Source: Nitrospira sp. | Lineage (GTDB): Bacteria > Nitrospirota > Nitrospiria > Nitrospirales > Nitrospiraceae | Assembly (NCBI GenBank): GCA_030444405.1 | Contig: JARFPM010000019.1 | Location: 1-38,372 of the forward strand | DNA length: 38,372 bases | Reading direction: 5' to 3' | In this document: one piece after another, positions 1,952-9,431 of the stretch | How positions within the stretch are numbered: the first letter of the stretch is position 1 | Layout of the letters: the number at the start of each line of letters is the position of its first letter | Position numbers and translations under genes: made by a program | Notes under the pieces: model-generated | Seen by the model: only the letters and a program-made list of their open reading frames with translations | The model's database searches: none | What the model was told of the DNA's origin: nothing

Positions 1952-1967
1952 TGGCACGGCGATTGCG
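1952..1967 (+). promoter_or_regulatory. Sigma-54 (RpoN) promoter
   Basis: TGGCACGGCGATTGCG is an exact match to the sigma-54 consensus core TGGCACG-N4-TTGC, with GG and GC at the required -24/-12 spacing. It predicts a transcript start near 1978, within about three bases of the first stem of the structured leader. The only gene downstream in this orientation is the multicopper oxidase at 2204. Such promoters need an AAA+ enhancer-binding activator; none is encoded in this window. Confidence 0.8.
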
Positions 1968-1977
1968 CTACGCAAAC

Positions 1978-2106
1978 CTCGCTGGTGAAGGTGTGGGTGA
2001 TTTTGGACCGGCCTCCGAATGACCCATTCCTTCGCAAGAAGGAACCCTTCACCAGCTCTTAACCCTCCTGAGATACGAGGCCGGAAGTCAGTTCGGAGGC
2101 CGGTTC
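1978..2106 (+). ncRNA. Structured leader RNA of the multicopper oxidase gene (novel candidate)
   Basis: P1: GCTGGTGAAGG (1981-1991) with CCTTCACCAGC (2046-2056), 11 perfect bp. P2 inside it: TGGGT (1994-1998) with ACCCA (2022-2026). P3 directly abuts P2: TTCCTTC (2027-2033), tetraloop GCAA, GAAGGAA (2038-2044), 7 bp with a GNRA loop. This makes a compact three-way junction. The P2 loop contains 2005-2020, which pairs with 2091-2106 (13 contiguous Watson-Crick pairs flanked by two G-U pairs and one more G-C). That pairing crosses P1 and gives a long pseudoknot or an alternative fold. The G-U pairs work only on the + strand. An 8-base competitor, GAGGCCGG (2077-2084), can pair with 2008-2015. 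It may be a cis-regulatory leader or a separate sRNA. No known riboswitch class is recognised. Confidence 0.65.
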
Positions 2107-2203
2107 TTATTCCAAAGTTCTGTTGACGATCTAGTGGCGATCTTGAATAGCAGGTTTGAGCTGTTTCGTTGGCGGTCAATATCAAGAGAAGGGGAGGCCG
2201 AGT

Positions 2204-5200
2204 ATGAGGTCTATGCAGTCCACCATTTCTAAACTGAGTCGGAGGCACGGGAGAGCCGGCATGTTACAGCAACTCCTGAGCCTGGCATTAATGAGCGGTC
2301 TAGCCGTGACACCAATGACATGGGCCGCAGAGAAACACGATCACCTTAACGACGCGGGGAAGGCATCGGCGGAAAAGGTGATCTATCGTGAAGGCGGGTC
2401 AGTCCTTCACGACCGCATGATGGAAGAGATCAAGCGGCAACAGGAATTCATCGGAAAGAAGGGAGGGTACAGCACGGGCGCCAACAGCCACATGATGCAA
2501 CAGGGCGTGTTGCTGGTGGCGGATGACCCGGACAAAGTCTCGGTCACCAGCGGGCAGCGGTGTCCGGCGAATGCACCCGTCAAGGAATACCACGTCACCG
2601 CGATCAACATTGAAATCACCCTGAGCCGTTTTCTTGATTACTTCCCCGGGTACATGTACGTCCTGAACGAAAATCTGGATAAAGCACGAGCCGAGGAGAC
2701 GGCGAACAAGGAAGCGCGGGAAAAAGAAAACGATCCGGGTGCCCTGTCGAACGGTCTGCAGGGCGATGTGATCCAACCGCTCGTCATCAGAGCGAATCAG
2801 GGTGACTGCCTCAAGATGACCCTGCACAACCGGATCACCGATGAGCCGACGAACCTTGTCATCAACGGTTCGTCGATGGTGGTCTCTTCCACCGGCAAGC
2901 CGGCGACTCCGTCGAATCCGGATACGACCGTGGCGGCGGGGAAAGAGCAGAGTTTTGAATGGTACATCAAGCCGGACACACAAGAGGGCGCGCGGTTTCT
3001 CCGATCGCATGCCTCACGCGAACAGTTCAATCTCGGGTTGATCGGCATGTTGGTCGTGGAGCCACGAGGCTCACGGTATCTGAGTCCGTTTGATGGAAAG
3101 CCAATGGCCAGTGGCTGGGAAGCCATGATTGAAGATCCGAATGGGGCGGACTTCCGCGAGTTCGCGATCTTCTATCATGAGGCAGGAGACGAAGCGTTCC
3201 GGATCTTGAATAAGAAGGGTGAGATGCTGCCGCAGCGTGACCCCCATACCGACTCCTATCGGCCCGGGGCGCGGCTGCTGAACTATCGGAGCGAGCCGCA
3301 CGGAACGCGTATCGAACTTCAGGCCCACATGGGGTTCTATGGCGATGAGTCCATGGCGTATGGGTCCTATACGTTCGGCGACCCGGCTACGACGATCCCT
3401 CGTTCCTACCTGGGCGACCCTGCCAAGTTCCGCATGGCGGGCGGTTCGGAGATCGTCCATTCACATCACCTACACGGTGGGTCCATCCGTTGGGCGCGCC
3501 AGCCGGGAAACAGCCACCTTGATTTCGCGGCTTCAAGCAATGGACCGGTGAAGTTTCCGCTCATCAGCGATACATCGGACCGTCTTGATGTGCAATCGAT
3601 CGGGCCGACGGAGATTTATGATCAGGTGATCGAGGGTGGTTCCGGGGGATTGCAGGCCTTGGCAGGCGAATTCGTGTTCCACTGCCACATCCCGCAGCAC
3701 TATGTCACGGGCATGTGGGGGTTCTGGCGCGTGTACAACACGCTGCAGGCTCCAGGCTCTCAGACCGACGTGATGAAGCCGTTGGTTGAGTTACCGGACC
3801 GTGTCGGTCGTATGAAGACCGGTGTGGCAAGCGATAAGCTCGTGGGTACGACGGTGGATTGGTACGGTGGCAAGAAATTCGAGATCACCAAGGACAAGAC
3901 GGATTGGAAAGCCAATCCGGCCAAGGTCTCCATCAAGGACTGGGTCGAGATGCAGGTGCCGCCGCAAGGCAAACCGGGCCACAAGACAACTGAAAAGGAG
4001 CAGACCCTGGCCTATGACTCGACGGTCAATGATTGGGCCTGGGATGGTACGAAGGCTCTAACAGAACCTGAAACGTCGTACGAATGGGTGAACTACAAGT
4101 CGGCAACCCCGGGCAAGCGGCAGGAGATTCTCTTCGACCCGCGGAGCGGAAAACTGTCGTGGCCGTGGCTGCGGCCGCATCTCGGCAGGCGGGTGCCATT
4201 CTCGCCGAGCCACAGTGGTGCACCCTGGTTGGAGCCGATTCATCGGCGTGACGATGGCAGTAACTCCACCGAGCCGGCCAAGCCCGGCGAGAACGGACCC
4301 TGGAGCCTCTGTCCGGAAGGCGCGCCGGTCAAGAAATTCAACATCCATGCGATCACCTTGCCGATTACCTTGAAGGCGGCGACGGCCAAGACGCCGGCGA
4401 TTGTCGATCCGGGCGGCTTGCTCTATGTCTTGCATGAAGAGGAAGCTGATGTCCGAAAGAATCGAGCGAAGCAGTTTCCGCTGGTCATTCGCGGAAACGT
4501 GCAGGACTGCGTTGACGTCGTCTATAAGAGCGAGCTGAAAGATGATACACGGCAAGGGTTCTCCAGCAAGACGAACCTGCATCCGCACATGTTCCAGTTC
4601 GACACGCAAGCTTCCGATGGTCCAATCATCGGCTTCTCCTATGAGATGTCACTCCGTCCGTTCACGATCTTGAAGGACGAGCACCCAGGGAAGGGCATGC
4701 CGGTCCCGATGAACACCACGATCGAGGCGGATGCCGCCAAGGGGGCAACCAGCATCAAGGTCAAGGATGCGTCAAAGTTCCACGTCAAGACGGAGCTGGG
4801 CGTGGGGATGGATGAAGTGAATGGATTCGAGTCAGCCCGTATCAGCAAGATTGAGGGCAATACGATCACCTTCGAGCGGCCGTTGCAGCATGCCCATAAG
4901 AAGGGTGAGATTGCCTCGGTCGAGTGGATCCGGGAGCGCTGGTATGTGGACGCCGACTTCGGCACCACGTTCTGGCATGACCATGTGTATGGACTCGACT
5001 CGTGGGGGCACGGGCAGTATGCCTCATTCATCACGGAGCCGCCGCGATCGACCTATCATGATCCAGTCACGGGTAAGGAAATCAGGAGCGGCCCCGTCGC
5101 GGACATTCACACGACCGAACCGGTGTCCGCCCATATCAGGGGGTCTTTCCGTGAGATCGTGACACATGTCATGGATTCCAACCCTCGGGCGGCAGAATTG

Positions 5201-6970
5201 ATTACGGCCGACAATCCACAGGCGAAAGTCAATGCGATTTCTGTGGACGGGACACCGTCGGCGGTCTATCCGGCCAGACTCAATCTGTCGCCGATGAAGT
5301 TCTTGAACGGCGGCGAAGCCACGACCGGTGGCGGCTACAACATGCGGGTAGAGCCCTTGTCTGTCCGCTTAGCAAACAACCCCGATCCGTCGCAGTTGTT
5401 CAGCAGCCGGATTCACGGAGATCCGGATACGCTGATGCTGCGGGCCTATCTGGGCGATCCAGTGGTGGTCAGGCTGCTTGAAACGTCGGCCAACGAAGTG
5501 CATTCCTGGCACATCAGCGGTCACTGGTTCCCGATGGAGCGCTACAGCAAGAACTCCATCCCACGCAGCTCGCTGCACGTGGTGATCGGGGAACGGTACG
5601 ATGCGGCTATTCCGGCCGCCGGCGGACCGCAACAGATGGCAGGCGACTACCTGTACTACAGTGGTCGGGCGTCGCACTTCGTCGAAGGCAGCTGGGGAAT
5701 TTTCCGAGTCCTTGACAGACCGGAGACAACGCTGAAGCCGCTCCCTGGGCGCAGCGAGATTCCGCAGTCGGCCAAGTCTGTCTGTCCTGCTGATGCACCG
5801 GTGAAGAGCTTCAACGTCTCGGCCATCGATAAGGCGATTCGCTACAACAAGGGGACGCCTGGGACGATGGAAGTCGACCTGGAGCGCAAAATGGTGCTAG
5901 GCAACGAAACGGGTAAGATATATGTCCTCGAAGGGGAGAAGACCAAGGTTGCCTCTGGCAATCTTGAGCCAAGCCCCTTGACGTTGCATGTCAACGTCGG
6001 TGACTGCATCAAGGTTAATCTGAAAAACGAGATGGCCAAGGAGAGAGCCGGGTTCCATGTCGACAACCTGGCTTACGATCCAAAAGAGTCCATGGGCATC
6101 AACGCCGGCAACAACCCTGGGGATCAAACGGTTGCCCCGGGTCAGAGCAGGATTTATACGTTCTACGCTCATCCGGAATTCGGGGAGAACTCGGCCCTGA
6201 TTCAGGACTGGGGGAACGTGATTGAGAACCCGCGGAACGGGCTCTTCGGCGCCGTCATTATCGGGCCGAAGGGATCGCAGTATCGCGATCCGGTCAGCGG
6301 TGAAGATCTCGCGCAGAAGAGCTCTTGGCGGGCTGATGTGATCGTGGATCGGAGCGTGCCGAGCAACGCAAACCGGCAGAACTACCGGTCGTTCGCGCTC
6401 CTGTTCCAAGACGAGGACAATATCACCGGCACGAGCTTCATGCCGTACATCCAAAAGGTGGCCGGCGTGACGGCGGTGAACTATCGGTCGGAGCCGACCG
6501 ATTACCGCACCGAGAAGGGCTGTGCCTACAGCGAAGTGTTCGCCTGTGTGAAGACGGGTGATCAGCCGGTGACGCCGACGATCGCCGCGCACGTCGGGGA
6601 TCCGGTTGTCATTCATGTCCTGGGTGCTTTCAGCGAACAGGTGCAACTCTTCAGCGTGTCGGGTCATGAATGGAAGCACGAACCGTACATCAGCGGGGCG
6701 GACCTCGTGAGCACCATGGAGTTCGGTGGGTCCGAAGTCATTAATGCCTGGTTGCACGGCGGAGCCGGCGGACCGAACGGGATTCCCGGTGACTATCTCT
6801 GGCTCAACCAGCGTCCGGGCTATCTCGATGCCGGGCACTGGGGGATGCTGAAGGTCCTGGATCGTGACAGCCGTGCCATTCTGCCACTAGGTGGTCAAGC
6901 CCCAGCCACCCAACAGGCTGAGGGTAAACCGGCGGGGAAACCCAGGCCGGTATCCATGAAAGCCAAATAG
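2204..6970 (+). CDS. Giant multicopper oxidase, three repeated units (probably six cupredoxin domains), exported
   Basis: 1588 residues from ATG 2204, chosen over an upstream TTG because AGAAGGGGAGG (2187-2197) sits just before it. The N-terminus is an export signal (SRRHGRAG, then a hydrophobic run, TWAA). Three units each open with CP-x-x-APVK at Cys120, Cys703 and Cys1194 and carry a related DC-hydrophobic strand (GDCLK, QDCVD, GDCIK). Copper ligands: HSHHLH (419-424), HCHIPQHYVTGM (493-504, the type-1/type-3 signature), HPH (793-795), HDH (925-927) and HSWHISGHW (1100-1108). All four HxH pairs of a trinuclear centre are present, but the usually C-terminal motifs come before HPH/HDH. Size and layout recall large six-domain oxidases such as the Mn-oxidising MnxG/MofA type. 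Substrate unknown; location periplasmic or outer surface. Confidence 0.85.
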   Translation: MRSMQSTISKLSRRHGRAGMLQQLLSLALMSGLAVTPMTWAAEKHDHLNDAGKASAEKVIYREGGSVLHDRMMEEIKRQQEFIGKKGGYSTGANSHMMQQGVLLVADDPDKVSVTSGQRCPANAPVKEYHVTAINIEITLSRFLDYFPGYMYVLNENLDKARAEETANKEAREKENDPGALSNGLQGDVIQPLVIRANQGDCLKMTLHNRITDEPTNLVINGSSMVVSSTGKPATPSNPDTTVAAGKEQSFEWYIKPDTQEGARFLRSHASREQFNLGLIGMLVVEPRGSRYLSPFDGKPMASGWEAMIEDPNGADFREFAIFYHEAGDEAFRILNKKGEMLPQRDPHTDSYRPGARLLNYRSEPHGTRIELQAHMGFYGDESMAYGSYTFGDPATTIPRSYLGDPAKFRMAGGSEIVHSHHLHGGSIRWARQPGNSHLDFAASSNGPVKFPLISDTSDRLDVQSIGPTEIYDQVIEGGSGGLQALAGEFVFHCHIPQHYVTGMWGFWRVYNTLQAPGSQTDVMKPLVELPDRVGRMKTGVASDKLVGTTVDWYGGKKFEITKDKTDWKANPAKVSIKDWVEMQVPPQGKPGHKTTEKEQTLAYDSTVNDWAWDGTKALTEPETSYEWVNYKSATPGKRQEILFDPRSGKLSWPWLRPHLGRRVPFSPSHSGAPWLEPIHRRDDGSNSTEPAKPGENGPWSLCPEGAPVKKFNIHAITLPITLKAATAKTPAIVDPGGLLYVLHEEEADVRKNRAKQFPLVIRGNVQDCVDVVYKSELKDDTRQGFSSKTNLHPHMFQFDTQASDGPIIGFSYEMSLRPFTILKDEHPGKGMPVPMNTTIEADAAKGATSIKVKDASKFHVKTELGVGMDEVNGFESARISKIEGNTITFERPLQHAHKKGEIASVEWIRERWYVDADFGTTFWHDHVYGLDSWGHGQYASFITEPPRSTYHDPVTGKEIRSGPVADIHTTEPVSAHIRGSFREIVTHVMDSNPRAAELITADNPQAKVNAISVDGTPSAVYPARLNLSPMKFLNGGEATTGGGYNMRVEPLSVRLANNPDPSQLFSSRIHGDPDTLMLRAYLGDPVVVRLLETSANEVHSWHISGHWFPMERYSKNSIPRSSLHVVIGERYDAAIPAAGGPQQMAGDYLYYSGRASHFVEGSWGIFRVLDRPETTLKPLPGRSEIPQSAKSVCPADAPVKSFNVSAIDKAIRYNKGTPGTMEVDLERKMVLGNETGKIYVLEGEKTKVASGNLEPSPLTLHVNVGDCIKVNLKNEMAKERAGFHVDNLAYDPKESMGINAGNNPGDQTVAPGQSRIYTFYAHPEFGENSALIQDWGNVIENPRNGLFGAVIIGPKGSQYRDPVSGEDLAQKSSWRADVIVDRSVPSNANRQNYRSFALLFQDEDNITGTSFMPYIQKVAGVTAVNYRSEPTDYRTEKGCAYSEVFACVKTGDQPVTPTIAAHVGDPVVIHVLGAFSEQVQLFSVSGHEWKHEPYISGADLVSTMEFGGSEVINAWLHGGAGGPNGIPGDYLWLNQRPGYLDAGHWGMLKVLDRDSRAILPLGGQAPATQQAEGKPAGKPRPVSMKAK

Positions 6971-8521: not shown

Positions 8522-9027
8522 GAAGCGGTCTCCACGCTGTATGTCTCGTGATCGTTCTCGGCGTGTCGACGGTCGGCGCGCCTGCCGCACAGCCGAACGA
8601 CGTCGTTTCTTCGGGACGGGTTGAAGTGGTCCTGGGGAACGAGCATCGCCAGCACCTGGAGGAGATCAAGAAAGAGTTCGCTGAGGCGGGGCTCACGAAC
8701 CTCCACGTGCAATTCATGAAGGCGGGGAAACCTCCGACCAACATCGGCCTGGGTCCATCGGTCACTGCGGCACGGGCCCGCGCCGCCATCCGGATGGCCA
8801 AGAAGTACAATCGAGATGTCACCATCCTGTTGCCGGAGCGGCTCTTCCCGGATCATTATGTGACGATCGCATCCTCCAGCTTCGACGAGACTGTGGAATA
8901 TCGCGTGAGCATCGAGCAGCTCAAGGAACTGGAAAATCCCGCACTCGCAACGGAGGAATTTCACGAGTTGTATCGCCGGCTCACGCCGACCGATCAGCCG
9001 CCGGTCAAGAAAGGTCGGGTGTTCTGA
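8518..9027 (+). CDS. Exported protein of unknown function
   Basis: 169 residues. ATG 8518 overlaps the preceding stop (ATGA), implying translational coupling. The signal peptide is RSGLHAVCLVIVLGVSTVGA, then PAAQ. The mature part is mixed alpha/beta: GRVEVVLGNE, HRQHLEEIKKEFAEAGL, LHVQFMKAGK, SVTAARARAAIRMAKKY and VTILLPERLFPDHYVTIAS. No cysteines remain after cleavage and no metal motif is evident. I do not recognise the family. Its place between a cupredoxin and an SmbP-like protein suggests a periplasmic accessory role, which is inference only. Confidence 0.65.
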   Translation: MRSGLHAVCLVIVLGVSTVGAPAAQPNDVVSSGRVEVVLGNEHRQHLEEIKKEFAEAGLTNLHVQFMKAGKPPTNIGLGPSVTAARARAAIRMAKKYNRDVTILLPERLFPDHYVTIASSSFDETVEYRVSIEQLKELENPALATEEFHELYRRLTPTDQPPVKKGRVF

Positions 9028-9431
9028 TGATGAAGCAGATGCTCTGCGCCGTCGTGTTGGCAATGGCTGTCGGGGCGGCGCCGATCCTGGCCGCGCCGAC
9101 GCAGGCGATCCAAGAGCACGGCAAGGCGATGCTCCGTGACGCGGAGGAAATGGTCATGCACGGAGGCATGGGCGATGGCGGGGCCATTCGGCACCATTGC
9201 GCAGAAGTGACCAAACATGCGACGGCGATTCTCGGCCTGTTGCCCAAGGGGGATGAGCATGGCCGAGCGGCGGCGCCGTTCCTCCAAGAGGCCATCACCC
9301 ACTGTAAGCGGGTAGCCGACATGGGCGACAAGGTCGATCCAGGTGCGAGCTTGAATCCCGCCGTGAAAGCGCGTGCGGCGGCCAAAGAGGCGATGAAGCA
9401 TCTGTCGGCCATGCGCGACAGCGGCGCATAG
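9027..9431 (+). CDS. SmbP-like small periplasmic metal-binding protein
   Basis: 134 residues. ATG 9027 overlaps the previous TGA (TGATG). Signal peptide MMKQMLCAVVLAMAVGAAP to about ILAA. The mature protein is all-helical and rich in His and Met spaced for one face of the helices: QEHGKAMLRDAEEMVMHGGM, then GAIRHHCAEVTKHATAILG, DEHGRAAAPFLQEAITHCKR and AAAKEAMKHLSAM. This is the arrangement of the SmbP family, which binds Cu and other divalent metals. Two cysteines (HHC, THC) are unusual for a family otherwise dominated by His. It is last in the four-gene run from 7122. A likely role is metal buffering or sequestration beside the copper proteins. The stop codon TAG shares its final G with the first base of a MITE-like repeat. 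Confidence 0.75.
   Translation: MMKQMLCAVVLAMAVGAAPILAAPTQAIQEHGKAMLRDAEEMVMHGGMGDGGAIRHHCAEVTKHATAILGLLPKGDEHGRAAAPFLQEAITHCKRVADMGDKVDPGASLNPAVKARAAAKEAMKHLSAMRDSGA

Follow-up and report, generated by a model that had tools for sequence, protein, structure and literature searches.

A structured leader RNA family of Nitrospirales carrying an anti-Shine-Dalgarno loop predicted to control multicopper oxidase translation

A 38,372-nt stretch of Nitrospira sp. DNA, called the window here, carries a potential sigma-54 promoter, a foldable leader and then the gene of a large multicopper oxidase (MCO). This arrangement raises the question of whether the leader acts as a regulatory RNA and, if so, what it pairs with. 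Our analysis gives a probability of about 0.7 to the reading that it is a leader RNA whose anti-Shine-Dalgarno (anti-SD) loop would control translation of the MCO in cis and probably also in trans.

The promoter core TGGCACGGCGATTGCG (TGGCAC-GGCGA-TTGCG) lies at 1952–1967 of the plus strand and is recognised by its sequence, by the same box in relatives and by the RpoN gene encoded in the genome. Its GG (1953–1954) and GC (1965–1966) form the GG-N10-GC arrangement; the last base is G instead of A or T, so that the core is not exact, as a preliminary description had called it. With sigma-54 initiation about 12 nt downstream of the box, the transcript is predicted to start near 1978, three bases before the first helix. 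The minimum-free-energy fold places there, in the MCO leader of the plus strand, a structured core (1981–2056, also delimited by covariation and covariance-model matches) formed by an 11-bp P1 (1981–1991/2046–2056) that encloses a three-way junction of P2 (1994–1998/2022–2026) and P3 with its GCAA loop (2027–2044). Sequence and fold place the promoter core, P1, the P2/P3 junction and a 16-bp helix crossing P1 exactly where the preliminary description had put them. Compared with its own shuffles, the full leader folds more stably (folding-energy z of -2.2). No good terminator is visible downstream of P1, and the window's genome holds one copy of the element.

The gene behind this leader (2204–6970, plus strand) encodes a distantly MnxG-like protein of 1588 aa with Pfam Cu-oxidase_3 and Cu-oxidase_2 domains. 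Its score against the NCBIfam MnxG model, 121 bits, falls far short of the equivalog cut-off of 3100. Genes flanking the MCO cluster, at 341–1150 and 9027–9431, match or weakly match SMBP (PF16785), a family of small metal-binding proteins; the one at 341–1150 is fused to a beta-barrel-like domain.

The promoter recurs with the element. A GG-N10-GC-type box was found in 108 of the 110 fetched copies, ending 13–14 nt before P1 in 103 of them, and this near-constant spacing implies that throughout the set the predicted transcript starts no more than a few bases from P1. The main form thus has its box at the distance from the RNA start expected of a sigma-54-dependent leader. Diverged copies preceding class-B and variant class-A MCO genes have no sigma-54 box (among class B, loci L289, L285, L388, L387, L385, L383 and L389), so the earlier proposal of a sigma-54-driven leader holds as typical of the main form only.

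The element is widespread within one bacterial order. Of 175 Nitrospiraceae genomes, 151 yielded it with a DNA query, usually as one copy each, and exact-pattern matches include the named organisms N. moscoviensis and Ca. N. defluvii. A covariance model built from the element (R1) and run on a 346-genome sample across the phylum matched 99 genomes, all within Nitrospirales, in the Nitrospiraceae and a second family; on closer inspection it added genera g18 and g19 as carriers. In total, 20 of 22 Nitrospiraceae genera and the second family contain the element, which was not found outside the order in the phylum sample, and no viral contigs with it were found. Single exact-pattern matches in Nocardia (L161) and in an Acidobacteria MAG (L219) fit the covariance model unconvincingly and were set aside. 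A repeat or mobile element is contradicted by the roughly one copy per genome and by the orientation with the MCO gene.

Conservation of pairing rather than of sequence identifies the core as RNA. Standard pairs fill 95.9% of the pair cells across 81 distinct cores, and double changes occur in 11 of the 23 pairs, with P3 contributing six and P1 four; the 95 double-change cells observed compare with 23 in shuffles, a level that 0 of 500 shuffles reached, in a set where related copies are not independent and many come from draft assemblies. When partner columns were slid by 1–3 positions, the covariation signal was lost and paired-cell counts fell far below those of the true register. RNAalifold independently returned the same main helices. 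In the second family, P1 has a quite different sequence (e.g., GCCGACGCTGG or GTCGGTGAAGG) and keeps its pairing. Such compensatory changes, whose absence the preliminary description had named as grounds for abandoning the structure, together with paired cells far above the slid controls, argue for RNA and against an element acting as DNA only. The 77-nt core is therefore a real RNA family. A known one is contradicted by Rfam 15, in which the window has no match at gathering score and the best relaxed match, on the other strand, reaches 12.2 bits and is attributable to chance. The initial view of a new structured leader RNA of an MCO gene, belonging to no known class, is thus borne out by fold, covariation, MCO linkage and the Rfam scan. 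It is hardly credible, by comparison, that a short upstream open reading frame encoding a leader peptide is the functional unit instead of an RNA device: a short GTG...TAA frame does run through the core in the window and in closely related copies, yet it is kept in only 40 of the 81 distinct copies and interrupted by stops in 18, and the covariation favours RNA structure.

Across these copies, little or no variation is seen at positions GGACCGGCCUCCGA or in the loop GGACCGGCCUCC at 2005–2016. The constant partner of this loop, overlooked in the preliminary description, is the MCO gene's own Shine-Dalgarno (SD) site. The window's SD, GGAGGCCG at 2193–2200, complements loop positions 2009–2016 with a duplex energy of -20.0 kcal/mol, and the same complementarity is found in most element-bearing MCO genes. 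GGAGGCC occurs in 114 of the 139 MCO starts (82%) that have both GGAGG and a cis element. A generic strong SD was considered as the cause of this motif; however, only 312 of 4501 AGGAGG-ATG sites (6.9%, counts summed over ten genomes) carry the GGAGGCC extension. On the plus strand of the window, the only non-coding sites with GGAGGCC or GAGGCCGG are the MCO SD at 2193 and two upstream copies, at 2077 and 2095.

Furthermore, loop and SD change together. The class-A genes of four genomes (G130, G124, G089 and G057) have a changed element (in L039, for example, P1 is GTCCGATGGGGG/CCCCCCATCGGAC), and their variant loop UUGGCCUCCUCUC forms 13 contiguous base pairs with its own ribosome-binding site (RBS), GAGAGGAGGCUAA, where the usual loop would form 7. 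Similarly, in two class-B loci of genus g17 (L383 and L389), a loop ending in CCUCCUGAA makes 9 pairs with the RBS UUCAGGAGG, against 5–6 for the usual loop. Own loop/RBS pairs outperformed swapped ones across eight types, the observed run length being reached in 48 and the energy in 28 of 40320 permutations, counts that are not strict probabilities since the types are related by descent. This covariation reflects few independent events, at gene starts chosen by script under a generic SD rule. The leaders therefore show what a cis anti-SD leader should: a loop complementary to its own SD and compensatory changes between the two. That the loop or the GGAGGCCGG sites serve as a protein-binding site, with complementarity as a by-product, would account for the extreme invariance of the loop sequence, but the RBS is complementary to the loop rather than identical, the two co-vary and the match extends to 12–13 nt, all of which make this reading very improbable.

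The loop has further partners inside the leader. A first copy of its complement, GAGGCCGG, lies at 2077–2084, and a second, GTTCGGAGGCCGGTTC at 2091–2106, pairs with 2005–2020 through 14 Watson-Crick and 2 G-U pairs, with a duplex energy of -32.5 kcal/mol; this is the crossing helix of the preliminary description, a pseudoknot. The helix exists, and relatives have decoys too: of 89 distinct leaders, 61 contain one of 9 bp or more, and in 67% of distinct leaders a decoy helix exceeds shuffles (p ≤ 0.05). It is not constant, being missing in many genera where the core persists, and is best read as an optional competing decoy.

A conserved junction whose loop has alternative partners also invites another interpretation, namely that the three-way junction is an aptamer for a metal or other ligand, with the anti-SD loop and decoys as its expression platform. 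The compactness of the junction and the nature of the gene product, a copper enzyme, favour it. Nevertheless, invariance sits in the loop and the helix pairs, while the junction linkers and the P3 loop vary; P1 and P3 change strongly in sequence among related copies; and neither an Rfam match nor a known aptamer family was found. The earlier suggestion of metal or ligand sensing drew no support, as nothing in the analysis points to a ligand, and a riboswitch is doubtful.

The genomic context ties the RNA to MCO genes. An MCO start lies downstream on the same strand in 106 of 110 fetched copies (a few of them fetched twice), mostly 200–240 nt from P1; of the four exceptions, two likewise have an MCO-like start behind the leader, and all second-family copies precede an MCO. 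A tree of the N-terminal 520 residues distinguishes clade A, to which the window's gene belongs, clades B, C and D, which are about 70%, 56% and 50% identical, respectively, and the genes of the second family, although it was built by a quick method and some of its forks are poorly supported. The canonical element accompanies clade D and most of clade A, the diverged element clade B and some of clade A. No convincing upstream element was found before class-C MCO genes, which in this tree are sister to the second-family MCOs that do carry it.

Two further features were seen around these genes. A short GC-rich hairpin (e.g., CCGCC...GGCGG) stands just 5' of the MCO RBS in many genera, for instance in leaders L101, L106, L088 and L093, and is unclear in the window. 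In other genomes, a GGAGGCC(GG) RBS is also present at homologs of MCO-cluster neighbours, encoding a carboxypeptidase-regulatory-like and a sulfatase-modifying-factor-like protein (L144, L145, L165, L181, L201, L207, L221, L231 and L238), while the window's own copies are without it; these sites suggest a possible wider regulon.

It is the class-C genes, which have no element of their own, that carry the perfect 12-nt complement of the loop, GGAGGCCGGUCC, at their RBS, with a duplex energy of -30.4 kcal/mol. In 85 of 175 genomes, from 19 of 22 genera, the exact GGAGGCCGGTCC-ATG arrangement (pattern GGAGGCCGGTCCN{0,4}ATG) is present, against a handful of matches for a reversed control pattern. 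Nearly all inspected true starts with this pattern belong to class-C MCO genes, and the sequence 5' of the site varies between genera. The site has drifted in genomes where no element was detected (G002, G010, G015/G016, G132 and G161). Two others, G031 and G123, keep a perfect site without a detected element, possibly owing to an assembly gap, and in genus g1 some sites are imperfect, with a bulge or mismatch, despite the element being present. Class-C genes appear to have lost the leader and kept the target site, and the perfect 12-nt complement makes action in trans likely as well. In the window's genome, where only two MCO genes were seen and target prediction used sequence patterns only, the second MCO is a poor complement of the loop, so that cis action alone is supported there.

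The idea that the RNA might work as an sRNA, raised at the outset, has in this way gained unexpected support from a distant MCO paralog, and cis pairing is indicated beside it. Taken further, the RNA could be mainly a trans-acting sRNA that shares a promoter with the MCO gene, its cis pairing being incidental: the longest conserved complement is indeed the one in trans, with 12 perfect pairs at class-C MCO genes, and these sites drift where the element is absent. Against such a primary role stand the constant same-strand linkage to MCO genes across genera, the variant loops that follow the SD of their own gene and the retention of the element in genomes that showed no class-C MCO; we regard it as unlikely.

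The preferred reading, in which the leader RNA acts through its anti-SD loop in cis and probably in trans, can be set out as a mechanism. The sigma-54 promoter would yield an MCO mRNA with the element as its 5' leader, and the P1/P2/P3 scaffold would display the fixed loop as a mimic of the ribosome's own anti-SD. Binding of the loop, as a competitor of the ribosome, to the GGAGGCC(G) SD of its own MCO, about 180 nt downstream, would block initiation, repression being the direction of control that we infer, together with any signal acting on it. In many lineages, decoys such as those at 2077 and 2091 may compete for the loop, the SD being free when the loop is decoy-paired and hidden when it is SD-paired. 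In class-C lineages, this loop, as part of either the mRNA or a 5' fragment processed from it, very probably forms 12 perfect base pairs with the class-C RBS as well, and production of one MCO would then lower translation of its paralog. The fullest version, a dual switch across Nitrospirales that sets its own start through decoys and silences a paralog through 12 perfect pairs independently of Hfq, is more tentative, and we place it slightly below even odds.

Several known systems share parts of this design. In translational riboswitch platforms and attenuators, an upstream anti-SD hides the SD and has an alternative partner. The Nitrospira SD is likewise the complement of an upstream anti-SD with an alternative partner; unlike in those leaders, this anti-SD sits about 180 nt upstream as the apical loop of a domain of its own, is almost unvarying across two families and matches paralog mRNAs in trans. 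The alpha-r14 or 'cuckoo' RNAs (NfeR1 of Sinorhizobium meliloti and relatives) carry the anti-SD motif CCUCCUCCC in hairpin loops on stems of differing sequence and silence translation starts independently of Hfq (PMC10746234). The Nitrospira element similarly holds its anti-SD in a loop with diverging stems, in a genome without recognisable Hfq. However, the cuckoo RNAs are stand-alone sRNAs that have broad regulons and bear three redundant anti-SD loops of a generic type, whereas the Nitrospira element has a three-way junction and a single loop, lies in the leader of its target gene and shows a narrow, extended match; CCUCCUCCC, which defines cuckoo RNAs by its presence in several hairpin loops, is missing from its conserved core. 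CJnc230/FlmE of Campylobacter is an RpoN-dependent, mRNA-processed sRNA with a putative anti-SD region and targets in the same pathway (PMC11187230); it resembles the element in its proposed working, but not in structure or origin. In CruR-type control in Bordetella, an upstream reading frame regulates a copper-related operon post-transcriptionally, and this needs a translated protein and Rho (PMC9426467); both systems relate to copper, but the Nitrospira leader has no conserved reading frame. The element is therefore best regarded as both a new RNA family and a new form of anti-SD control.

In the literature on Nitrospira small RNAs, riboswitches or an MCO leader, no description of such an element was found; the RNA-seq study of N. 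moscoviensis removed small RNAs (PMC6606698). We found no regulatory RNA of this kind described for nitrite-oxidising or comammox Nitrospira, which are key nitrifiers. In this group the element is nearly universal and has exact pairing partners, and the genes behind it encode large copper enzymes whose function this work does not establish. If the proposed reading is true, the element would be among the rare instances of a single invariant loop that fits the start site of its own gene as well as a paralog's, and it would offer a model for how cis leaders turn into trans regulators.
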